A DNA stretch of 22,991 nt. Source: a virus. The position numbers and the translations under genes are program-made. Positions 5,060-22,991 of this stretch are shown in pieces (position 1 is the first letter of the stretch; every line of letters starts with the position of its first letter). The notes below the pieces were generated by a model that was not told the origin of the DNA, did not search any database, and worked only from the letters and a program-made list of their open reading frames with translations. The stretch is from positions 1 to 22,991 of IMG/VR virus record IMGVR_UViG_3300027901_000037; one strand, written 5' to 3'.

Positions 5060-7470
5060 AGATCGCTGCGGTCCCTATCCCAATTGGTGGTGTAGCCGTA
5101 AGGAATAAAGGGGCGGTTTAAGCTGCGATGCCTGATCCTGAATTTGGCCGTCTGTTGACCTTCCCACTCTTTCAGCCGCCACTGGACATCGGCCTTGGTC
5201 TTGCCTAGTTCGGTCTGCTTAACCTTTCCCGCTGGCTGTGCCGTCTTGGAGGCATCTGGATACTCATCAAGTTCGATCATGCCGCCCACCTGTGATTCGA
5301 CTACTAAGCTGAATACTCTTTGTTTCACTCCTTCCTCGTAAGCCGCCCACATATCGGCAGTAATCATAAAGGCGTCTATGGCGACAGCGACGCCTTGGGC
5401 ATTAACGTCCTGGTCGCCGTAATTGAGACGATAGTATTTGCCAGAGGCATGACCGCCAGCGACTAGGTAAAATCGCTTGTTAAATGCAGAGAGGATGCAG
5501 GAAATGTCTGTCCCGTAACTGTAAATTCCGTACCACATCGTTGGCACATGGAGCGCAATGATCTTGTTAGGCGTAGTTTGACCCGCCCCGCTATAGATTA
5601 TCCAGTGAGCGCACTGAGTCTCAGGATCGTATTCGCCGTAGGTCTTGTCGGCATAGTCTGGATTTATGTAATCTGCGTGATTTGGATTGAAGAAATTGTC
5701 GATGTCGGGTGCGGAAATTAGCCACCACTTGATGCCGTCAAACATCCAAATTCCTTGAAAAAACCAGGCCAGAGTGACTTTGTATTTGCCTTGCGAATCC
5801 CTCACTCCGGTTTCGATGCTGACGGCGGACATGGGGGCATCTATCCCCACAGTCGCACTCATTCTCATCCTGCCATAGCTGGAAGGAGAATCGCCCTGCA
5901 GCATCCACATCTCACGATCAGCCCAAATCACGAGCTCATTAAAGAAGGGCAGAGCTCTTCGCAGCGGACGTTCTCCGAAGTAGATGTAGCCTGAGTCGGC
6001 TCCATTGAAAGTGTTGGGCAGACTCGACGCCGAATACCTCATGGCATTGGCCGCGCCTCGCGGCGCTAACTGCCACGCTCTGCGCTTCCAGCCTACTACG
6101 CCGTAGCAATAGGCTGGATCTTCGGCGGCTGGCACTCCCTCAATGTAGTAAACTCCAGTAGGATCACTCGTTGTTCCTGTGGCGTTATAGAGCCGATACC
6201 AGTAGAGGGCCAAGAGATCCTGGCCTATGACCACTGGCTTCTCATCAGTGGGCGAATCCCACGCGAGATAACCACTTTGGGCATAACTGGTGCTGCCTGT
6301 GTTTGTCGTGTCGGTGAATGTTCCAACACTGGTCCATGCGCCAGTATCCTTGAAGTAATGGATTGCGCTTATAGGAGAGGTATTCGTGTTCTTGTCGTCA
6401 TTGATCGACAGGATTATGTGACTTACTGGCTGAGAGAATCCCACATAGATATAATTAGAAAGATCAACACCCCCGAAGTTGGCTGCATCTACTGTGGAGA
6501 TGCTATTCACCTGGGCGGTGTAATCTTCATAGGTTGTTCCGCCATCAGTGGAAACCTTGCAGCCTTGACAGCCTATGTATTGGCCGTCCCAAATGTTCTT
6601 CAAGTTATTCCACGGGCTATGTACTGTTATGGCACTGACTGTCACATCGGAATCGAGGGCGGCGTCGAAAGTTATCTGGTAGGCGAATCCAGGCAATCCC
6701 TCAATGAACGTCTTGATCTCATCTGTGGCGACTGTCCAGGTTACAGCACCACTCTGGCCCAGGCTGGTATTGCCACCCGTTTCAGTACCGTCTGCGATGC
6801 TAAGGCTGGTCCAGCTACCATTGTATTTCTTTACAGTCATTGCTGAGGCATTGCCGTTGACAGTGGCCATAGTGAAGGTGATCTTATTGAGTGGCTGGTC
6901 TGCCAGCACATAGATTTCATCGCTGGTCGTCATGGAACTCAGGCTCATAACCGAGCTGGCATCGCCGTCAGTACACTCGTCGTACCAGTTGATGTAGTTT
7001 CCAGTACCATCGTCGTAGAAATAGACACCCGTGGGCCTATGTTCTTCTCCTCGCCAGATCAAGAATTCCTTGTTATTCGCGGCGATCACGGCGTCTTGCA
7101 CTTGGGCAAATTGAGTAACGCTGCAGCCAGCGGTTAGTGCTTGATCCTCGCTCCAGGTCGTCGGGCTACTGTCCGGCGGCAGCTCACTAGCCCTCATAAT
7201 GCGCTCTCCGTTGCTTGCGTCGTATGTGTGCGCGAGGATATAATTGCCACCTTCATTTAGCTGAGTGAATTGGAACAAGCTCTTAAATCCCAGGTTGCTG
7301 GCGACAGCAGAAGTCGTAAGCTCTCCCTGGCCTTTCCTCTGTTTCCACTGGAATCCAGGCTGCATATTTTGGGTATCGGAAAGCTCATCTTCTTTGAGCA
7401 AATAAGAGCTAATACCTTTAATCATCTGCCCGAAGAGCTTGCTAAATTTGCCAGAAGTGCGCTTAATCAT
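5056..7470 (-). CDS. Large tail hub/nozzle-like or stopper protein with duplicated beta domain
   Basis: The product has 804 residues. The N-terminus (about 18-50) has the 'ISSYLLKEDELSDTQNMQPG' then WKQRKGQG pattern commonly seen at the start of phage tail hub and stopper proteins. Residues about 183-285 and 338-446 are two copies of a roughly 100-residue beta domain sharing IYV...QP, GxWTS, QSG...W and TDE landmarks. The C-terminal half alternates Trp/Tyr-rich strands (GIWMFDGIKWWLI, PTMWYGIYSYGTD) like a beta propeller. The tail of the protein is charged and ends in TTNWDRDRSDL. The start ATG has GGAG about eight bases upstream, 12 bases after the adaptor gene. Position right after the adaptor matches P22 gp10 or T7 gp12-like nozzle proteins, but I cannot align it to them. 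The hub role is fairly confident; the exact family is not. Confidence 0.8.
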   Translation of the reverse strand: MIKRTSGKFSKLFGQMIKGISSYLLKEDELSDTQNMQPGFQWKQRKGQGELTTSAVASNLGFKSLFQFTQLNEGGNYILAHTYDASNGERIMRASELPPDSSPTTWSEDQALTAGCSVTQFAQVQDAVIAANNKEFLIWRGEEHRPTGVYFYDDGTGNYINWYDECTDGDASSVMSLSSMTTSDEIYVLADQPLNKITFTMATVNGNASAMTVKKYNGSWTSLSIADGTETGGNTSLGQSGAVTWTVATDEIKTFIEGLPGFAYQITFDAALDSDVTVSAITVHSPWNNLKNIWDGQYIGCQGCKVSTDGGTTYEDYTAQVNSISTVDAANFGGVDLSNYIYVGFSQPVSHIILSINDDKNTNTSPISAIHYFKDTGAWTSVGTFTDTTNTGSTSYAQSGYLAWDSPTDEKPVVIGQDLLALYWYRLYNATGTTSDPTGVYYIEGVPAAEDPAYCYGVVGWKRRAWQLAPRGAANAMRYSASSLPNTFNGADSGYIYFGERPLRRALPFFNELVIWADREMWMLQGDSPSSYGRMRMSATVGIDAPMSAVSIETGVRDSQGKYKVTLAWFFQGIWMFDGIKWWLISAPDIDNFFNPNHADYINPDYADKTYGEYDPETQCAHWIIYSGAGQTTPNKIIALHVPTMWYGIYSYGTDISCILSAFNKRFYLVAGGHASGKYYRLNYGDQDVNAQGVAVAIDAFMITADMWAAYEEGVKQRVFSLVVESQVGGMIELDEYPDASKTAQPAGKVKQTELGKTKADVQWRLKEWEGQQTAKFRIRHRSLNRPFIPYGYTTNWDRDRSDL

Positions 7471-7482
7471 GTCTTGACTCCG

Positions 7483-8682
7483 CTATCGTGGATAGGTGAA
7501 TCCCAATCCACTTTCGTAATGCTCCCACTTTATTTCCTGGCGGAAGTGCCTTGCCCCTGCGTCTCGCGTTGTGTCGATGTCGGCCATCTCCATAATGATG
7601 TCGTCCTTAATCCTGGCGATCATATCTGTGTCTTTCATCGCATTGGCCAGGATCTTGGCCGAGAGGAGCACCAGGAGCCGCTCGTAGTCATAGCCGAGAT
7701 CCGTCTCATCCGAATCGGCGGACAGATTGCTAGGCCATGCCTTATAGAGAAGATGCAGGAGATTGGGAGTGATGGTCGTCTTATTTGGCCACAACCAGAT
7801 CCGTGTCTTGTCATTGTAGAGCCCCATCTCCCACGGATCGCCCGTAGATTTGGAATACATCAGGACTTCCTGAATGTGCTGGCGTCCCAGGCCGATCCTG
7901 CTTGTGCCGTTCATGTAATATGCGGCGATAAGATTTTTGAGATCCGTAGGAAGGTTCTGGCCGATGTTGAAGTTGTTGGCTGTGTAGGTCCCATTCACAT
8001 CACAGGTAGCCCCGCTAGTGCCGCCAGTTAGCTCCTCGTTGTCCTCGAACAGGGCTGTATTATCCAGGTCGCCACTGGCATCCTTATGATCCTCGACCAC
8101 GAGGAAATCAGCAGCGACATATTCGACAACGGCGGTGTAACTGTTAGTCCCTCCGGTGACAGTTTCCCCCACTACGAAGGTCCCTGAGACGTTATCGACG
8201 GCCACCTTGCTCTGGACCTTAATATCCTGATGGACATCGGTTTTCTCGATCCCCCCATACTTTCGAGCAACCTGTTTTTGTGCTTGGTTGATGGCGTCCC
8301 TGACCTCAGAATTGGTGAAACGGGTATGGTCAAGACCCTTCTGTGCATGACGGCTATAGATGTAGATCACATCGTTATTGTCGTAGTCATTATTCTGACC
8401 ACCATCTATTGAATCGGTGAAGAGCTTGTCATTTGTGCCGCCAGCACTACTGGTTATCGCCCTGATCGTAGCAAGAGAGCCGCCATCGCTTACGTTGTAG
8501 ATCACATCACCTACGGCGACGCCATGATTCACGAAATTCTCCGATGAATCCTGAAAGAAATCCGTGCGATTACTGCCACCGTCATGGGCGAAGGTGGTGC
8601 TCGAATCGGGTATGCGCTCAGGAGCAGGATCGTCAACCTCTTGGCGGACATACTTCCTCAGAGTTTCTAGCGTTGCTCCCAT
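7483..8682 (-). CDS. Head-tail adaptor/connector with beta insertions
   Basis: The product has 399 residues from ATG 8682, chosen because GGAGG lies six bases upstream; the in-frame TTG at 8694 overlaps that site. The ends of the protein form a helical core: residues 1-20 (ETLRKYVRQEVDDPAPE), about 118-145 (TRFTNSEVRDAINQAQKQVA) and the C-terminus with LPTDLKNLIAAYY and a Leu/Ala helix. This resembles small phage adaptors that dock under the portal. Three beta segments are inserted: about 31-110, with VAVGDVIYNVSDGG and a DNNDVIYIYS end; 165-190, with VGETVTGGT; and 214-230, with EELTGGTSGA. The last two are copies of a motif common in phage structural proteins. The gene follows the terminator hairpin at 8701 and precedes the tail hub. 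The role is well supported by position and fold pattern, not by a family match. Confidence 0.75.
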   Translation of the reverse strand: MGATLETLRKYVRQEVDDPAPERIPDSSTTFAHDGGSNRTDFFQDSSENFVNHGVAVGDVIYNVSDGGSLATIRAITSSAGGTNDKLFTDSIDGGQNNDYDNNDVIYIYSRHAQKGLDHTRFTNSEVRDAINQAQKQVARKYGGIEKTDVHQDIKVQSKVAVDNVSGTFVVGETVTGGTNSYTAVVEYVAADFLVVEDHKDASGDLDNTALFEDNEELTGGTSGATCDVNGTYTANNFNIGQNLPTDLKNLIAAYYMNGTSRIGLGRQHIQEVLMYSKSTGDPWEMGLYNDKTRIWLWPNKTTITPNLLHLLYKAWPSNLSADSDETDLGYDYERLLVLLSAKILANAMKDTDMIARIKDDIIMEMADIDTTRDAGARHFRQEIKWEHYESGLGFTYPR

Positions 8683-8980: not shown

Positions 8981-9772
8981 TCATTTCTCCTTTACGCTTT
9001 GTTTAGCGCCTTCCACTATGCGCTTTCTGGCATAGATAACAGCCTGTTCATCTATTTCCTCTACCGCCTTCTCGCCACTGGATTGGCCGAATTGTCTCCA
9101 CTCATCGGGCCAGCAACGAGCATCATGGTAGTGAGGGCTCTTGATTCGTGTGTCTAGGTGGACATGGTATCCATGTTCCTGAGCCAGTTCGCAGAAGAAG
9201 GTGTCCTCCGTCTTGAACGGGGCCTTTCCGTCCGCTGTCTCGAATCCCTCTATCTCGTAAAACTGAGTCTGGAACCAGGGATAGGGTAGATTCTCAAAGA
9301 CCTCGCGCCTTATCATCATGCAGCCAGTACCGAGCATCCCCCTGTGAGATCCGCCGTAGGTGGTGAGATCAATAAGGCCAGCACTGAGAAACATCAGGCT
9401 ATCGCTCGTGTAACCGTCCTCTGCATAGAGAGCCATGCCAGCAACGGAACGCATCTCTGGCTCCTTGCGATAGTAAAGGCCGGAAAGGATATTGATGTTT
9501 GGATCTTTCATGTCCTCCATGAAAAGGTCAAAGGCATCGGGGAAGAGGCCGTTGTCGTGATCCCAAAAGAAGAGGAAGTCACAGTCAGTCCGCTTGAGAA
9601 AGGTAGCGGCAATGACATTGCGGTTGACCTCTATGTAGATGCCATTTTGGAAAATGACTTCAAAGTGATAGGCAGACCAATCTCGCCCACCCATCATGTG
9701 AATGAGCGAGATTGGCTGCGCTAGATGCACCTTGAAGCTACCTGTGGCAATTCCGATAGCTATTCTGTGCAT
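8981..9772 (-). CDS. Glycosyltransferase, GT-A fold, inside the capsid gene block
   Basis: The product has 263 residues. Residues 65-74 (DFLFFWDHDN) contain a DHD metal/nucleotide-sugar motif at the end of a hydrophobic strand, as in GT-A enzymes. GTGCMMIRREVFE (148-160) and the following TEDTFFCELAQEHGYHVHL (188-206) match the acceptor/catalytic region of GT2-like transferases, where an acidic pair follows a conserved strand and helix. No signal peptide or TM segment is seen, so it probably acts in the cytosol. The start is supported by AAGGAG six bases upstream, fused to the stop of the previous gene. The neighbours are capsid and adaptor genes. It may glycosylate virion proteins or a host glycan. 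Donor and acceptor cannot be read from the sequence. Glycosyltransferase is fairly secure; the family number is not. Confidence 0.75.
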   Translation of the reverse strand: MHRIAIGIATGSFKVHLAQPISLIHMMGGRDWSAYHFEVIFQNGIYIEVNRNVIAATFLKRTDCDFLFFWDHDNGLFPDAFDLFMEDMKDPNINILSGLYYRKEPEMRSVAGMALYAEDGYTSDSLMFLSAGLIDLTTYGGSHRGMLGTGCMMIRREVFENLPYPWFQTQFYEIEGFETADGKAPFKTEDTFFCELAQEHGYHVHLDTRIKSPHYHDARCWPDEWRQFGQSSGEKAVEEIDEQAVIYARKRIVEGAKQSVKEK

Positions 9773-15975: not shown

Positions 15976-16238
15976 TACATACCCTCATAAGGTCTAGCCC
16001 TTGCCATTTTGTCCAGCTCCGCATCGGTGTAGCCGCCTTCTTCTGGCGATAGCAGCGCCCTTTCAAATATATCTTCCTCTGGCGGCTTCTCGTTTGGCTT
16101 AAAAAGGATTGGGCCTTCAAAAGTTCTTTCACCACGGGTCTTTCTTCCCAGGATGAATCCAAAAAGAATCAAGACCAGGGCGAATACAATGCCAATACTC
16201 ACTAAAATCCCTGCCCCGATAACTTGTGGTGCAATCAT
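15975..16238 (-). CDS. Small single-pass membrane protein
   Basis: The product has 87 residues. Residues 5-31 (VIGAGILVSIGIVFALVLIL continuing FGFILG) form one long hydrophobic helix with small-residue spacing, directly followed by RKTRGER. The remaining 50 residues are acidic and mixed (KPPEEDIFERALLSPEEGG), so by the positive-inside rule the C-terminus probably lies in the cytoplasm. Its ATG overlaps the TerL stop as ATGA and its stop overlaps the next gene, so it is tightly coupled to packaging genes. No lipobox or cleavage site is evident. Holin, spanin-like or terminase/portal-docking roles are all conceivable; none is demonstrated. Confidence 0.72.
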   Translation of the reverse strand: MIAPQVIGAGILVSIGIVFALVLILFGFILGRKTRGERTFEGPILFKPNEKPPEEDIFERALLSPEEGGYTDAELDKMARARPYEGM

Positions 16239-17875
16239 AGTAACCCCGCAAATTCGTCCTCGAAGTAGATCATGTCTCCCATGTCCTCTTTCATTCGTTT
16301 AAGTGCGAAATTCTGCCAGGGATCTTGTTCCACTGGCGGTTTTTCTGTCGCCTCGATCCATTTCTGCTGCCATGTTTTCGGTGCTGTTTTCTCGATTTCT
16401 GGATAGTAATCTGCGAAAGCAAGCATCAGAGCTTCCGCTCTATCTGGCGACCTAATTCCCTCCTTTTTCATGCGTTGCTTGCTCCAGATCAAAATTCTGC
16501 CACGCGAATCCAGTTCGTATCGTAGCGATGCCAGTTCGCGGATCAGGATTTTGTCATTCGGTATGCTGATATGGCCAGCCTCGAAATACTCCCTGAGCTG
16601 CCAATAAAGCTCAGATCGCTTGTTCACATAGAGAGTGGGATCACTCGTTGCTTCACGAACGTCAATTCCCATAACATCTATGCCTTGCTCCATGAGCCTC
16701 TCAAACACACCTATTCCCACACCACAGACATCAATCCTGATAAGTTCCGGCGGTATGGGCTCACGCCTCTTAGAAAATTTGCCATTCTCAATTCCTCGAC
16801 GAGTCAAGCCAGCGATCCGGCCAGCAGCCTTCATGCTCTCTTCTTTTTCAAAGGCGACCAGACCCATTACCTTTACGCCCTTGACGAAACAAAAAACTGT
16901 ATCGTTGTCGCCTCCGGCAGCTATATCCACCCCCACTGAATCCACTACCCTGTGCGATAGCGGCTTGATGTATTCAATCTGGCGATCAACCGCCGCCTCG
17001 ATCCAAGGCAATGGGATAACAGTATTGTCGTCCTCGATTGGAAACTCACCGAGCACATGGACGCGGTAGAAATTAGATGTCTTACCACCAGGACGGTCAG
17101 CCATGTTGTCGAGCCACTGTCTGTTCTTGCTTACCAGTTCTGATTCTTCACTGTTGAAATGAAAAATCTTCCAGGGCTTGTCGGCATATTCATGGTGAGT
17201 GGAGTAAAAGTAGCCGATAGTTCTGGTAGGGTTGCCCACCAGGAGGGCTTTATTGCCTACATCAGTCATGGCTCCTTCCATGACATCGAATATCTCGTCC
17301 GGCACACCACTAGCCTCATCGACTACGAACATCATGTTCTTCTCGTGGAAACCCTGAAAACTCTCACTGGCTTCCTTCCTGGCTGTCCTGGCGACGGCGA
17401 ACCATGTTCCTTTGTGTTCTTTATGAAACACTCTGTCGGTGGTCATTTCAAACTTGTCGGCAAAATAAGGGTCCATATTGCGATGCTGCTTGCCCAATTC
17501 AGCCCAAAGCACATCACGGAGCTGGTTCTCAGTGGGGGCCGTGCAGGGAATACGGCAGAAAGGCCGCGTGATAATGTACCACCAGATGATCTGAGCCAGC
17601 CCCGTAGTCTTGCCGATACCACGACCAGACCGCGCACTGACATGATCGTTCTCGAAGATGGCTCTCGAAAGCTCGATTTGCTCTCGCACGGGCTCCATGT
17701 GCAATACTTCCCTGACGAATCTCACTGGATGATCGACGTAGGGCTCGATTTTGAGCTGGTACAGGAGGTCAGGATCTCTTTTTTCGAGAATGGCGTCGAT
17801 CAGGGATAGCTCTAACTGGTCTATCCTTTCCAGTTCCGACGGTGATAGCATTTCTTCGGGCGACAAGTTTTTCAA
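16235..17875 (-). CDS. terL: Terminase large subunit
   Basis: The product has about 546 residues and is the ATP-driven DNA packaging motor and nuclease. Walker A is GRGIGKTT (84-91), Walker B is MFVVDE (182-187), and a coupling motif LLVGNPT lies at 211-217. The RNase H-like nuclease domain begins near 312 with VGVDIA (D317), then RIDVCGVGIG (D382) and RSPDRAEALMLAF (D478), the usual three acidic positions. Length is typical. The best start is the TTG at 17875, with GGAG ten bases upstream; ATG 17851 is an alternative. Either start leaves at least 83 bases of overlap with the preceding gene. The stop overlaps the small membrane gene as ATGA. Identification is firm; the start is not. Confidence 0.93.
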   Translation of the reverse strand: MKNLSPEEMLSPSELERIDQLELSLIDAILEKRDPDLLYQLKIEPYVDHPVRFVREVLHMEPVREQIELSRAIFENDHVSARSGRGIGKTTGLAQIIWWYIITRPFCRIPCTAPTENQLRDVLWAELGKQHRNMDPYFADKFEMTTDRVFHKEHKGTWFAVARTARKEASESFQGFHEKNMMFVVDEASGVPDEIFDVMEGAMTDVGNKALLVGNPTRTIGYFYSTHHEYADKPWKIFHFNSEESELVSKNRQWLDNMADRPGGKTSNFYRVHVLGEFPIEDDNTVIPLPWIEAAVDRQIEYIKPLSHRVVDSVGVDIAAGGDNDTVFCFVKGVKVMGLVAFEKEESMKAAGRIAGLTRRGIENGKFSKRREPIPPELIRIDVCGVGIGVFERLMEQGIDVMGIDVREATSDPTLYVNKRSELYWQLREYFEAGHISIPNDKILIRELASLRYELDSRGRILIWSKQRMKKEGIRSPDRAEALMLAFADYYPEIEKTAPKTWQQKWIEATEKPPVEQDPWQNFALKRMKEDMGDMIYFEDEFAGLL

Positions 17876-18257
17876 TTTCTGACTTCTCCAGGTCTTGGAC
17901 GATTACCAGGACATTTTGATCCACCTGAATGTCCGTTTTGATTGTCTGTTCCTTGGGCTCTTTGCGCTTGATGATCTCTTGGATGATATACATAATCATC
18001 GAGCGATCCCGCAGCTCTATGGCTTCGGCCAGTAGCACTCTGAGTAGATCCCAGGAGTGTTCGAGAAGTTCCTTGGGAACAGTCAAGCCTGTAAGCTCAC
18101 GAAGTTGAGCAGAAATCCTGTCGAAATCAGCACCGCTCTTCTCGATCACTTCCTTTATGCGAATCTGATCTATGAGAGCATCTTCGATAAAAGCTGTAGC
18201 TGCCATCCCAAGGGCCTTAGACTGATTCGCCTTTCCTCTTTTTCCACCTGTAGGCAT
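17769..18257 (-). CDS. Putative terminase small subunit
   Basis: The product has 162 residues. It begins with a Lys-rich segment (MPTGGKRGKANQSK), followed by mainly alpha-helical sequence at 18-110 (IEDALIDQIRIKEVIEKSG, then ELLEHSWDLLRVLLAEAIEL). A beta-strand-like segment follows (QTIKTDIQVDQNVLVIVQDL), then a basic C-terminus. Placement directly before TerL, size, helical core for oligomerisation and a basic N-terminus fit a small terminase that recognises the packaging site. I see no clear helix-turn-helix. Its ATG overlaps the previous stop as TAATG, with AGGAA eight bases upstream. It overlaps TerL by 83-107 bases depending on the TerL start. The role is inferred from position. Confidence 0.65.
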   Translation of the reverse strand: MPTGGKRGKANQSKALGMAATAFIEDALIDQIRIKEVIEKSGADFDRISAQLRELTGLTVPKELLEHSWDLLRVLLAEAIELRDRSMIMYIIQEIIKRKEPKEQTIKTDIQVDQNVLVIVQDLEKSEIEKLVARRNAITVGTGKDRPVRAIPDRRHSRKKRS

Positions 18258-18989: not shown

Positions 18990-19334
18990 TTACCAAGGCC
19001 AGTTAGCAGCGAAATCCATCCATCTACTGAGCCTATTGATGAGTTTGCTATCTTCCTGGGCCTGGGTCCACTCCAGGCGAATGGCCTTTATTTCCTCTCT
19101 TAACTCCTCGAACGAATCAAGATCCCCCTCAACTGGCCGGAAATGGCCAGCCATCTGCCATATATCCCAAACTCGCCAGCGAGGAGCAACGTCATGGCCT
19201 TGCTGAACCAGCTCATACATCTTTTCAATAGCTTGCTCGACCTGTTTTCTTCCAAGATAATGTGGTCTGCGCCTTATGATAAGGTGAACGGGCTGCTTCT
19301 GATTGGCAAACCATCGGACCAGTTCTTCATTCAT
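18990..19334 (-). CDS. Hypothetical protein at the end of the accessory cassette
   Basis: The product has 114 residues starting MNEELVRWFANQKQPVHLII. It is charged and Trp-rich, with an Arg-rich stretch (IRRRPHYLGRKQVEQAIEK) and helical composition. I recognise no motif. Its ATG overlaps the glycosyltransferase stop as ATGA, so it is translationally coupled to that enzyme and may assist it. It precedes the terminator at 18922. The 55 bases between the stop and that hairpin contain three copies of ATTACC (plus strand) at about 20-base spacing, possibly by chance. The function is unknown. Confidence 0.72.
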   Translation of the reverse strand: MNEELVRWFANQKQPVHLIIRRRPHYLGRKQVEQAIEKMYELVQQGHDVAPRWRVWDIWQMAGHFRPVEGDLDSFEELREEIKAIRLEWTQAQEDSKLINRLSRWMDFAANWPW

Positions 19335-20185
19335 TCGATTAACTCATTAAACCGCTTTAGCAATGTGTTGATAGCATTGTTCGTCTTACCCTGGCCTTTA
19401 AATGCTATCTGCTCATCCCGCCAGTAACGTGCCATAGTACACGGGAGATCCTGCAGCCATCCCTCATCCCACCATTTGCCATGCACCATATAGACTTGCT
19501 CTTCTGTGCCTGAGAGTAGCAGTTTTTCCTTCTCGAACACAGCCGTCTCAGGCTTCATGTGCCAGTGATGGATACCAGTAAAACAGTAAGGCGGCATACA
19601 GATCATCTTCTCATGCTTGCCCATCTTGATTCCCAATATATTTAAATAGAGGAAATCATCCCAATGGTCAATCCGCCTAGAGATATAGAGCTCTCCGAAC
19701 CAATCGAAATTGCGAGGATCTATAAAGATTGGTACGCTCGTATGGATCTTGGTGTAAGGAAATTCATCGACTCCCAATGGACACTGATACTTTTTCTGAT
19801 AATCCTTGTTGAAATTGATAATCATGCCATTGGAGCCCGTCACAATCAGCCCCTTGGATGCTGCCAGGAAAAAGACATCGACATTCGCCTCTATCCACAT
19901 ATCGGCGTCGAGGAGACAAACGGCTTGATATTTATGTCCAAGCTCACAGATGATGCGAAATCTCTCTATGGCTGTGGCATGGACCTGATGATCGCCTTCA
20001 CTGTTGACGATTTGCACCTCGAAGGGATACTGCTGTGTTTTTTCAATGAACGACTCAGGCAACCTAAATGAGATCAGGACCACAGTATGCTCGTTCTTGA
20101 TCTTCTTTAGACTATTGAGCATGGCGGTGACGCCAGGGATATAATTATCACTGGCCGCAACAAAAAACGCATAATTGGAGCTCAT
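19331..20185 (-). CDS. Glycosyltransferase, GT8/GT-A-like
   Basis: The product has 284 residues. The N-terminus (NYAFFVAASDNYIPGVTAML) is the first strand and nucleotide-binding loop of a GT-A fold. LLDADMWI (91-98) holds the DxD-type metal/UDP-sugar motif (DAD 93-95). HGKWW (235-239) lies where GT8 enzymes carry a metal-binding His. VPIFIDPRNFDWFGELY (151-167) matches a similar segment in the truncated glycosyltransferase at the right edge, which suggests shared ancestry. No signal peptide or TM segment is seen. The start has a weak AAGGAT site fused to the stop of the basic protein. It probably transfers a sugar to a cytosolic acceptor. Donor and acceptor are unknown. Confidence 0.8.
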   Translation of the reverse strand: MSSNYAFFVAASDNYIPGVTAMLNSLKKIKNEHTVVLISFRLPESFIEKTQQYPFEVQIVNSEGDHQVHATAIERFRIICELGHKYQAVCLLDADMWIEANVDVFFLAASKGLIVTGSNGMIINFNKDYQKKYQCPLGVDEFPYTKIHTSVPIFIDPRNFDWFGELYISRRIDHWDDFLYLNILGIKMGKHEKMICMPPYCFTGIHHWHMKPETAVFEKEKLLLSGTEEQVYMVHGKWWDEGWLQDLPCTMARYWRDEQIAFKGQGKTNNAINTLLKRFNELIE

Positions 20186-20190
20186 TATCC

Positions 20191-20448
20191 TTACGCTGCC
20201 TTTCTTCTCCTCCCTGCCGCTGCCATCTCCTGAAACCTCTTCTTGCCGTACTTTTTCCGGCCAGCAGCAGCAGCTACGGCTGCGGGATTCTTTGCGCCAC
20301 CAGCCCTCGCTGAGGCTTCAACGGCCTTAAATCTTTCCCCGCTACCCAAAGGAGCAGACTGTTGGACCTTTTTTTGATGTTCTCTAGCTGCTCTCCGCTT
20401 TTGGAGATTAGCCGCCATCTTCTTGATTTTTTTCTTTCTCCTCGACAT
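20191..20448 (-). CDS. Small, very basic protein with GRKKYGKKRF motif
   Basis: From ATG 20448 (GGGGG five bases upstream) the product has 85 residues; the longer reading from 20472 lacks a site. It begins MSRRKKKIKKMAANLQKRRA and ends with GAKNPAAVAAAAGRKKYGKK then RFQEMAAAGRRRKAA. More than a quarter of residues are Lys or Arg. The 'K-NPAA-AA-GRKKYGK-FQ-MA' tail is a recurring sequence in small phage proteins and recalls KGG-type repeats. It may bind nucleic acid or a capsid partner. It overlaps the preceding gene by 41 bases. The function is unknown. Confidence 0.72.
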   Translation of the reverse strand: MSRRKKKIKKMAANLQKRRAAREHQKKVQQSAPLGSGERFKAVEASARAGGAKNPAAVAAAAGRKKYGKKRFQEMAAAGRRRKAA

Positions 20449-21112
20449 TTTGTCCCCCTCTAGGAGCCTCATAAAATCTGCAGTATCCCTTATATGAGCT
20501 CCATTGTTTCATTGGTCGCCAGCCCGCCTCTTCGAGCACAGCTACCTGTCCTGCTTCTGGATCGTGCATATAGATGTAGTCGTCCACATGCCCTATGGCA
20601 TGGGCCGCTTCCCTCTGACGAGCTCCCGAAAGCTGCGGTGCATCCACCAGGCCGAAATTAAACCGCTGATCCAGTGGCGGAGGTCCCTCATTTTCCTGAT
20701 ACGCATGAACATTCTTATGAAACCGCTTGCACATATCAGCGTACCATTTGGCTGGTTCATAGCTCGTGACCTTGTATCCTTCGAGCAGTAGCAGCTCAGT
20801 AGAGAGTCCCGCGCCGTTTTCGATGATTCTTGTTTTCTCAGCCAGTGGATAATGCCTGAGCAAAAATCTTTTTAGCTCAATCCAGTGGGGCCTGTAGATT
20901 GAGCGATTCCCCCACTGGATCTTGAGATTTGCCCCCTGAATCACTGATTCAAGAAAACCATTTAGCATCCAGGTACACCAGGGACAGATGAGGAATTCTT
21001 TGTTTGGTGGTGTTTTAAAAACCTGAACCTTGGAACTTTGGAAATGATACCTACAGCACTGGCAGATCATTGGCATATCTTCGCTCATACTCAGCTCGTA
21101 GGCAGTAATCAT
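20408..21112 (-). CDS. Zinc-ribbon fused to Rossmann (class I methyltransferase-like) domain
   Basis: The product has 234 residues. The N-terminal 50 residues carry CQCC (17-20) and CPWC (43-46), a four-cysteine ribbon. From 94 the sequence reads TRIIENGAGLSTELLLLEGY, then SYEP: a glycine-rich loop and acidic strand end as in SAM-binding Rossmann folds. FNFGLVDAPQ (151-160) fits motif IV, and YIYMHDPEAGQ (179-189) the next strand. The tail after 215 is charged. I see no second diagnostic motif, so methyltransferase is likely but not certain; another Rossmann enzyme is possible. It overlaps the methyltransferase before it as ATGA and the basic protein after it by 41 bases, so all three are coupled. 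Confidence 0.65.
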   Translation of the reverse strand: MITAYELSMSEDMPMICQCCRYHFQSSKVQVFKTPPNKEFLICPWCTWMLNGFLESVIQGANLKIQWGNRSIYRPHWIELKRFLLRHYPLAEKTRIIENGAGLSTELLLLEGYKVTSYEPAKWYADMCKRFHKNVHAYQENEGPPPLDQRFNFGLVDAPQLSGARQREAAHAIGHVDDYIYMHDPEAGQVAVLEEAGWRPMKQWSSYKGYCRFYEAPRGGQNVEEKEKNQEDGG

Positions 21113-21714
21113 CTCTTGAATTCCATAAAAATCCTACTTCGCTCATGCCGATTAGTTAATTGAAAACCCGCCCCTCCAAAAAATCCTTCATAGGCTTCGG
21201 CCAATGTCGGCTTTCTAACTCTAACGATTACATGGTCCGTAATTGCAGCCAAATGAAGAGCTATAGGATGCTGCAATTCCATTAAACTTCTTTTTACTTT
21301 TTTGAGTTTCCCAAGGTGATATAGTATTGAGATAGCCAGCACAGAATCAAAATAACCTAAATCGAGCTTGGGAATATCTTCAACGTAACCCTGAATAAAT
21401 CGGATATTATATCTTTTGCCATCTTTCTGGCAGAAATAATCATAAATGAAATCAAATTGATCTTTGTACTGATCCTGAGCTTCAATGCAGACGACTTCTT
21501 TAGCTCCCGCCTGAGCTGCCCGTATAGCGTGGATGCCAGCATTGGCTCCAAGATCCAATATGCGTTTCCCTTCAATCGGCTCCAAGAATTCTTTTATGAA
21601 AGGCCACGCTGGATCTCCACAGCCTCCATGTCCTTTAATCAAAGGGCCGTCGTCGAGCTGGATAGTCTGATACCAGGGCTTGAGTTGCTCTATCCGCTCA
21701 TCTATATCCGTCAT
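21109..21714 (-). CDS. Class I SAM-dependent methyltransferase
   Basis: The product has 201 residues. WYQTIQLDDGPLIKG (14-28) and FLEPIEGKRILDLGANAG (43-60) match the start of CmoB/DUF1698-like methyltransferases, where a 'W-x-x-x-I-x-L-x-D-G' lead precedes motif I. ILDLGANAG is motif I. E78 in VVCIEAQ would bind the ribose. YFDSVLAISILYHLG (121-135) is motif IV/V. The C-terminus (FFGGAGFQLTNRHERSRI) is the usual last strand region. The start has AGAAGG six bases upstream and overlaps the kinase-like gene by 17 bases. The substrate is unknown; the context suggests a glycan or small molecule rather than DNA. Methyltransferase assignment is firm. Confidence 0.85.
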   Translation of the reverse strand: MTDIDERIEQLKPWYQTIQLDDGPLIKGHGGCGDPAWPFIKEFLEPIEGKRILDLGANAGIHAIRAAQAGAKEVVCIEAQDQYKDQFDFIYDYFCQKDGKRYNIRFIQGYVEDIPKLDLGYFDSVLAISILYHLGKLKKVKRSLMELQHPIALHLAAITDHVIVRVRKPTLAEAYEGFFGGAGFQLTNRHERSRIFMEFKR

Positions 21715-22213
21715 GGAAAGCCTTCTCTTGTTCTTTTGTTGCCCCGCGCAACAATTTCTTTATGCAGACAGGAGTGTGCTTCTGAGTCCTGTTAAACATA
21801 TCTACGTCGCACTGGAAAGTAATGTCGTATGTCCAGGCATGGAAGATATTCCCAGGCGTGCAATCACCGATACCTATGCCGTGGGCGTCGCAATCTTTCA
21901 TAAATTGTCCAAACTGCTTGTATAATCTAGGGGCGATGCCGAACGGTCTGAGCTGTTGGAAATTCATTCCGTCGAACCATTCAATCAATTCCACATGCCA
22001 GGTCTTATCTAATTCCTTGGTGTGTACGCACTTTGGTAGATAATGAAGTTTCTGCGTAACCTCTCGATATAGCTCAGTATGTACCTTTGGAGTTAATCTC
22101 GCCCTGAACTTTCCTTTCTCAGTCACCAGGAGGAATACCTTGGGTGTGCCAATGTACTGGACGAGAATAGGATTGAGCTGCAGGGCCACGGCTGCACCCT
22201 CTATTACACCCAT
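21698..22213 (-). CDS. Compact kinase-fold phosphotransferase-like protein
   Basis: From ATG 22213 the product has 171 residues. The site TTAGG, six bases upstream, overlaps the previous stop; longer starts (22270) would overlap that gene by 50 bases. HGIGIGDCTPGNIF (111-124) looks like the catalytic loop of protein kinases and aminoglycoside/LPS-type kinases: D117 as base and N122 five residues later. CDVDMF (135-140) stands 19-21 residues after D117, like the metal-binding DFG/DFD. WHVELIEWFDGMNFQQL (72-88) fits the hinge between lobes. FLLVTEKGKFRARL (27-40) may hold the N-lobe strands. It is short: no glycine-rich loop is evident and little follows the DxD. Phosphotransferase is my inference from spacing; loss of activity is possible. 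Confidence 0.55.
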   Translation of the reverse strand: MGVIEGAAVALQLNPILVQYIGTPKVFLLVTEKGKFRARLTPKVHTELYREVTQKLHYLPKCVHTKELDKTWHVELIEWFDGMNFQQLRPFGIAPRLYKQFGQFMKDCDAHGIGIGDCTPGNIFHAWTYDITFQCDVDMFNRTQKHTPVCIKKLLRGATKEQEKAFHDGYR

Positions 22214-22220
22214 TCTGTGC

Positions 22221-22991
22221 CTAAGAGTATTCAGAGGGGTATCCACCCCATTTGTCCTCATCCCATTCAATCTTGTGTTTAAGGCTCAAATTATAGTGCC
22301 GAGTGAAATCCCAAAATAGCCGGACATTATTCTTCGCAAACTCCTTTGCTATCGGCTCCTTTGGCATGGCTAAAAACTGGCGGCACACCGATTCGTACCA
22401 CCAACGCCTATGGAAAGCATTGATCCGATCTCCCATCTTGTTAAGGCAAAGATACCACTTTCCACCGATGATCCGTTTGACCAGATTGACATAGTAGTAA
22501 TTGGACTGAATCCAGAAGAGATTGGGCAGCGGCATGATATTTTTAATCTCGCCTGTTTTTATCAAGACCCTGCTTAGTGAGCTCATATCACCGAGGGTTT
22601 CTGCCAAGCTCTCCTCTGGTATTTGCTCCATGATCCAGCCGAATTTATCAGGGCAAAAGAAATTCGGCATATTATGTAGTGGGGGCGAAGAAGCCCCCTT
22701 AATCGCTTGCAGGTTGTACTGGTCATACTCCTGACCACTGTAATCATTATTGGGTAACAATAACCTCCCTGTCTCCGCTGCGATTTCAAACCAAATCATT
22801 ATGTTGTTGGTGATCTGCATATCTGCATCGAATACAGATACGGCGCTGTACTCCGTTAGCTCTCGCACGGCGAAGAGATAGCGATACATCTTGCAGTACC
22901 AGACATTCTCACCAGCTTTGGGATGCCTGGGGTAGCCATCAGCCTGGAGATCCGCAATCGAAATGGGATAGAAGAAATCAAAAGCCTCTTT
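22221..22991 (-). CDS. Glycosyltransferase-like protein, N-terminus cut by right edge
   Basis: The frame is open for 256 residues to base 22991, so the first part lies outside the window; an internal ATG at 22889 is not the real start. YSAVSVFDADMQITNN contains DAD (55-57 from the edge), the metal/nucleotide-sugar motif of GT-A transferases. MPNFFCPDKFGWIMEQI resembles VPIFIDPRNFDWFGELY of the other glycosyltransferase at 19331-20185, and both carry DADM-x-I, so they are probably related. RRWWYESVCRQFL follows later. The stop TAG is fused to the ribosome site of the kinase-like gene. Sugar donor and acceptor are unknown. Confidence 0.72.
   Translation of the reverse strand, partial: KEAFDFFYPISIADLQADGYPRHPKAGENVWYCKMYRYLFAVRELTEYSAVSVFDADMQITNNIMIWFEIAAETGRLLLPNNDYSGQEYDQYNLQAIKGASSPPLHNMPNFFCPDKFGWIMEQIPEESLAETLGDMSSLSRVLIKTGEIKNIMPLPNLFWIQSNYYYVNLVKRIIGGKWYLCLNKMGDRINAFHRRWWYESVCRQFLAMPKEPIAKEFAKNNVRLFWDFTRHYNLSLKHKIEWDEDKWGGYPSEYS

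Follow-up and report, generated by a model that had tools for sequence, protein, structure and literature searches.

A kinase-like gene overlaps a methyltransferase gene in the glycosyltransferase cassette of an uncultivated phage

Results

Gene arrangement of the cassette

The window analysed here is IMG/VR virus record IMGVR_UViG_3300027901_000037, a stretch of 22,991 bases from an uncultivated phage, in which all principal genes are carried on the minus strand. The gene KIN (22213 to 21698 in the open reading frame list, minus strand) encodes a putative kinase-like protein of 171 amino acids, or of 190 amino acids if an alternative TTG start at 22270 is used. It is followed by MT (21714 to 21109, minus strand), which encodes a class I SAM methyltransferase of 201 amino acids. 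The 17-base overlap of these genes reported in the first-pass annotation was confirmed: the end of KIN and the start of MT share bases 21698–21714 of the minus strand, and an SD-like GAGAAGG precedes MT within the 3′ end of KIN. GC3 is 0.39 in MT vs 0.53 in KIN, a difference that counts against a single joint acquisition.

Proteins with DAD motifs are encoded on both sides of the pair, as had been described. Upstream, the ATG of KIN lies 7 nt past the stop codon of GTup (22221–22991, minus strand), a GT8-like gene with FDADM and HRRWW motifs that is cut by the window end. Downstream of MT, the minus strand encodes MT2 (20408–21112), a Rossmann/methyltransferase-like protein with N-terminal CxxC pairs; a Lys/Arg-rich protein of 93 amino acids (20191–20472) whose gene overlaps MT2 by 65 bases; and GTdn (19331–20185), a GT8-type GT-A glycosyltransferase with an LDADM motif. 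Putative small (17769–18257) and large (16235–17875) terminase genes lie downstream of the cassette on the same strand, and a further GT-A-like gene (phrog_1574; 8981–9772, minus strand) is found among the head and tail genes. No transmembrane segments were predicted in the visible cassette proteins.

Neither GTup nor GTdn was recognised by profile searches against Pfam, PHROGs, NCBIfam and the PDB. The earlier description of the region as a glycosyltransferase cassette is supported for the downstream gene by predicted structure: the GTdn model (pLDDT 89.9) matches WbbM, glycogenin and LgtC with E-values from 8.7e-10 to 2e-7, and GTdn is by this model a GT8-type GT-A fold protein with a DxD motif. 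GTup is a distant paralogue of GTdn and includes the same invariant Ala-Asp and His; the Ala and the second Asp of the DAD motif are invariant in 24 sequences.

MT resembles CmoB, TIGR04290 and EvdMO1

The assignment of MT to the class I methyltransferases held up well. Its Pfam match to Methyltransf_9 scores 44.2 bits against a cut-off of 23.8 (E 1.6e-11), Methyltransf_11 is also above its cut-off, and the profile match extends over the SAM-binding region typical of class I SAM methyltransferases. Among NCBIfam models, MT matches CmoB (2.5e-15) and TIGR04290 (9.7e-15), both far under the equivalog cut-offs; the CmoB match reaches 56 bits vs 209 and spans only profile positions 109–203 of 324. 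CmoB and EvdMO1 are matched in the PDB, and the N-terminus of MT is covered by TIGR04290 and EvdMO1 only. WbdD is not among the best 60 of the 66 PDB matches of MT (E ≤ 1). Judged from these profile matches, MT belongs to a CmoB/TIGR04290/EvdMO1-like group and is not detectably WbdD-like. It shares with these proteins the SAM-binding domain, and with TIGR04290 and EvdMO1 an overlap from the N-terminus on, but differs from them in its scores far under the equivalog cut-offs and in being a single domain of 201 amino acids.

The presence of CmoB models and structures among the best matches could indicate that MT is a CmoB-like tRNA wobble-uridine enzyme with no tie to glycans. We consider this scarcely credible, since the N-terminal third of CmoB is missing (the match covers profile positions 101–207 of 315), the score is a fraction of the CmoB cut-off, and the gene sits within a glycan cassette.

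KIN carries a kinase-like catalytic-loop motif

The residues on which a kinase fold had been proposed for KIN are all present as described. A putative catalytic loop, HGIGIGDCTPGNIF, includes D117 and N122, which have the D-x4-N spacing of Asp and Asn in the protein-kinase-like fold, and D136 and D138, 19 and 21 residues after D117, form at motif level a putative DFG-type metal site. KIN also has a hinge, LIEWFDG, and a putative beta3 strand, GKFRARL. In this strand R39 appears to occupy the position of the VAIK/beta3 lysine; it falls near the lysine of WaaY in a global N-lobe alignment whose register was set by eye and is uncertain. The HRD histidine position is I115, and the C-lobe is very short, with only 33 residues after D138.

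In order to score the loop, a PSSM was built from the loops of 50 real kinases belonging to four families, WaaY and WaaP families being part of the training set. KIN scores 19.3 bits, a value equalled by none of 5,000 shuffles. In a ranking of 514 open reading frames, a small and partly hand-collected set, only the true kinases WaaY and WaaP stand above KIN; the next below it is a methyltransferase-kinase fusion of a related phage (L027, 18.4 bits), and outside the kinase candidates the best frame scores 13.7 bits. A regular expression for the loop matched 24 of 1,745 open reading frames, namely those of kinase-fetched loci, the L027-type fusion, KIN, and two further frames (L038 and L039) that had been fetched with a nearly identical pattern. 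The catalytic-loop motif of KIN is thus well beyond chance.

Family searches gave a different picture from the motif. KIN had no match up to E 10 in the PDB and NCBIfam, no match to a kinase family in Pfam and PHROGs, and none up to E 10 to PF06176 (WaaY), so that it is below the curated cut-off of that family. A Pfam match to Tsi6 (E 0.2) was rejected as unrelated. With the APH, KDO and UbiB profiles KIN reaches no more than the upper 1.5–3.5% of its own shuffles, and the APH and KDO profiles do not set it apart. The profile comparisons suggested earlier place MT with the CmoB group and not with WbdD. A scan of IMG/VR proteins for relatives of KIN returned one identical copy, with no differences in either KIN or MT, and a scan of IMG/VR with the loop motif returned KIN and unrelated sequences only. 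No relatives were found in GTDB genomes and plasmids, in phages (best E 0.4) or in 21 related viruses searched over their entire records. KIN is therefore known from one independent sequence, and a score for its motif does not establish a fold. The structure prediction proposed in the first-pass annotation, run as a single-sequence AF2 model, had a pLDDT of 33 and is unusable either way. The claim of a kinase-like catalytic loop thus stands at motif level, by PSSM and shuffles, but not by fold model or family search.

These searches bear on the possibility that KIN is no kinase at all and that the D/N/D pattern arose by coincidence in an unrelated small phage protein. The lack of profile matches and of a usable model would agree with this, as would the similar loop pattern in two apparently unrelated frames (L038, L039) out of the millions of viral contigs scanned. 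However, apart from kinase candidates no frame of the comparison set scores as high as KIN, nor does any of its shuffles, and KIN is co-linear with WaaY at the hinge and in the putative N-lobe; we regard a coincidental pattern as improbable.

KIN is closest in motif layout to WaaY

The best match of KIN to a single kinase is to WaaY, the E. coli LPS heptose II kinase (BLASTP E 0.015). Only 1.2% of shuffles align as well; WaaY was picked after four E. coli kinases had been inspected, and both values are therefore optimistic. YrbL, WaaP and ThiK were also considered as the closest kinase, and were not clearly better than shuffles. Against a WaaY-family HMM, KIN scores above 4,997 of 5,000 shuffled versions of itself, with an E-value of only about 2–5. 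KIN and WaaY (PF06176) share in register a hinge, IE[WY].DG, and a loop, HG[IM]..GD...GN; their putative N-lobes are co-linear and the HRD histidine is absent in both. WaaY differs from KIN in that it has the lysine and is 232 amino acids long, and the similarity is under the family threshold.

The arginine at the lysine position, the isoleucine at the HRD histidine and the very short C-lobe might suggest that KIN is a pseudokinase without catalytic activity that assists or regulates MT or the glycosyltransferases. This seems distinctly unlikely given that D117, N122 and D136/D138 are all kept and that WaaY, likewise without the HRD histidine, carries the annotation of an active heptose kinase. 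On sequence evidence KIN probably has a kinase fold, and we hold with somewhat less confidence that it is catalytic. Most likely it belongs to the protein-kinase-like fold as a minimal and extremely diverged form.

KIN and MT sit in a slot that varies among related phages

Related loci were found via the large terminase and the glycosyltransferases. Their common cassette precedes the terminases and encodes a serine-rich protein, a methyltransferase, two heptosyltransferase-like proteins, GTup, a variable slot and GTdn. The heptosyltransferase-like (GT9-like) proteins were named by eye, neither Pfam nor the PDB giving a match. L004 and L011 are the two closest relatives, with GTup proteins 84% and 82% identical to that of the window; in both of them KIN and MT are absent and the GTup stop codon touches or overlaps the start of MT2. 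This direct junction indicates that KIN and MT are an inserted or variable pair, and from these comparisons the two genes appear to be a unit that was inserted in the cassette or forms a variable part of it. Neither L004 nor L011 has the Lys/Arg-rich protein of 93 amino acids at the equivalent position.

Other relatives have other genes in the cassette. In L005, L006, L007, L010 and L013 a UDP-GlcNAc 2-epimerase (WecB-like) is encoded between the two glycosyltransferases; L016 also falls in this group, and L007:3225-4241 gives example coordinates. A methyltransferase joined to a ParB_N-like domain lies in the same stretch in L017 (6708-7541) and L020 (5615-6568), by Pfam, and in the cassette of L022 (7051-8016), by eye; methyltransferase and ParB_N are an unusual combination. 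L018 includes a sulfotransferase-family gene (7183-7974) between MT2 and GTdn. With the exception of the ParB_N part, glycan-modifying functions are plausible for these slot occupants.

Serine-rich proteins are encoded directly upstream of the cassette in L004 (2-4507), L006 (2-2998), L010 (2-4225), L011 (3-4580) and L013 (2-3703), and likewise in L028 (3-7019) and L034 (3-7229). These proteins, all incomplete, comprise 28–52% Ser over about 1,000 to more than 2,400 amino acids, and show dozens of runs of four or more serines with repeated globular segments between them and, in some, CDSAF motifs. Such a giant serine-rich protein is an obvious candidate acceptor for O-glycosylation. The window record ends within GTup, and the presence of this gene in the window phage is predicted from the relatives.

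Kinase and methyltransferase genes recur in related phages

The first-pass annotation had likened the pair to a split form of WbdD. In favour of such systems in this phage group, L027 encodes, beside a distant GTdn homologue, a fused methyltransferase-kinase (6224-7447; frame length 407 amino acids, start not fixed) whose best PDB match is WbdD (E 3.4e-7), via its methyltransferase part; its kinase half matches Pkinase and APH under the cut-offs. A second case is L040 (1096-2922), on the L019 record, where the gene for an APH-like kinase (sub-threshold) is followed after 3 bases by a methyltransferase gene whose best PDB match is again WbdD (E 7.8e-5). This pair lies about 22 kb from the glycosyltransferase cassette of its record. 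An ECF-type sigma factor gene (554-1087) precedes it.

A second search of IMG/VR for WbdD-type fusions returned L027 itself only, and neither the fusion of L027 nor the kinase of L040, used as queries, matched any of 50,697 annotated phage records. Phage kinase-methyltransferase pairs of this kind were not found in the literature searched. The two relatives support the WbdD analogy for the phage group, but the pair of the window is unlike them in each of its two members. For this pair the analogy is weakened by a methyltransferase that is not WbdD-like and by the seeming lack of the VAIK lysine in KIN.

Discussion

We tentatively favour the view that KIN and MT form a decoration module for a glycan that the phage itself builds, probably on the virion, with KIN a kinase-like protein nearest to WaaY in motif layout. 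Under this scheme the GT8-like enzymes and, in the relatives, the heptosyltransferase-like ones would build an oligosaccharide, KIN would phosphorylate one of its sugars, and MT would methylate the glycan at a sugar hydroxyl or at the new phosphate. The most likely acceptor would be a virion protein, of which the giant serine-rich protein whose gene directly precedes the cassette in the relatives would be one example. The scheme builds on the genes and their overlap, the KIN motif, the GT-A fold of GTdn, the variable slot and the kinase and methyltransferase genes of relatives; from these we infer the catalytic activity, the order of the steps and the acceptor. Host surface glycan and virion glycan had both been proposed as targets. 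The place of the cassette in the late operon, beside terS/terL and portal, and the absence of predicted membrane segments suggest that the acceptor is cytoplasmic, a virion protein being the simplest choice; they also make virion glycan a likelier target than host surface glycan.

KIN and MT may also act independently, KIN phosphorylating one sugar as WaaY does and MT O-methylating another, in which case methyl phosphate would not be formed. MT most closely resembles stand-alone methyltransferases such as TIGR04290 and EvdMO1, L017 has a methyltransferase without a kinase at the same place before MT2, and the two window genes differ in GC3. Their 17-base overlap, their joint absence from the two closest relatives and the recurrence of kinase plus methyltransferase in L027 and L040 argue against independence, to which we give a real but minor chance. 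Within a joint decoration module, capping by methyl phosphate is possible. The fuller proposal of a split methyl-phosphate capping system that differs in architecture from WbdD, employs a kinase-fold enzyme among the smallest, caps the phage's own virion glycans and forms with L027 and L040 a recurring class of phage terminators appears rather unlikely.

If such phage kinase-methyltransferase pairs are real, they would be evidence that phages make glycans, capped or charged, for their own virions or for their hosts, and would supply a minimal kinase core from nature, about 170 residues in size.

Comparison with known systems

In bacteria, O-antigens with methyl-phosphate or methyl terminators are known. 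The WbdD enzyme of E. coli O9a and Klebsiella O3 is a single protein of 708 residues with the methyltransferase first and a C-terminal coiled-coil; it adds phosphate to the terminal mannose and then a methyl group to that phosphate (PMC3482155). KIN and MT resemble it in combining a kinase-like protein with a class I methyltransferase near polysaccharide enzymes, and KIN has the same catalytic loop layout, G-x-x-x-x-D-x-x-P-x-N. They differ from it in being two separate genes with the kinase first and in the lack of detectable WbdD homology in MT, WbdD being the top match for the methyltransferases of L027 and L040.

In Klebsiella pneumoniae O7, ORF6 combines a methyltransferase with a kinase that is unrecognisable by sequence and makes a terminal methyl phosphate (PMC11231755). 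This is a precedent in glycan termination for a methyltransferase alongside a kinase invisible to sequence search; ORF6 is likened to the window pair by description and not by sequence, and unlike the pair it is a bacterial multidomain protein with coiled-coil and glycosyltransferase modules. As for phages, we know of no kinase-methyltransferase pair in mycobacteriophage virion glycosylation. The mycobacteriophages Che8, Corndog and Myrna are reported to encode glycosyltransferases that glycosylate virion proteins (PMC12363180), and the window phage, which likewise encodes its own glycosyltransferases, may do the same.
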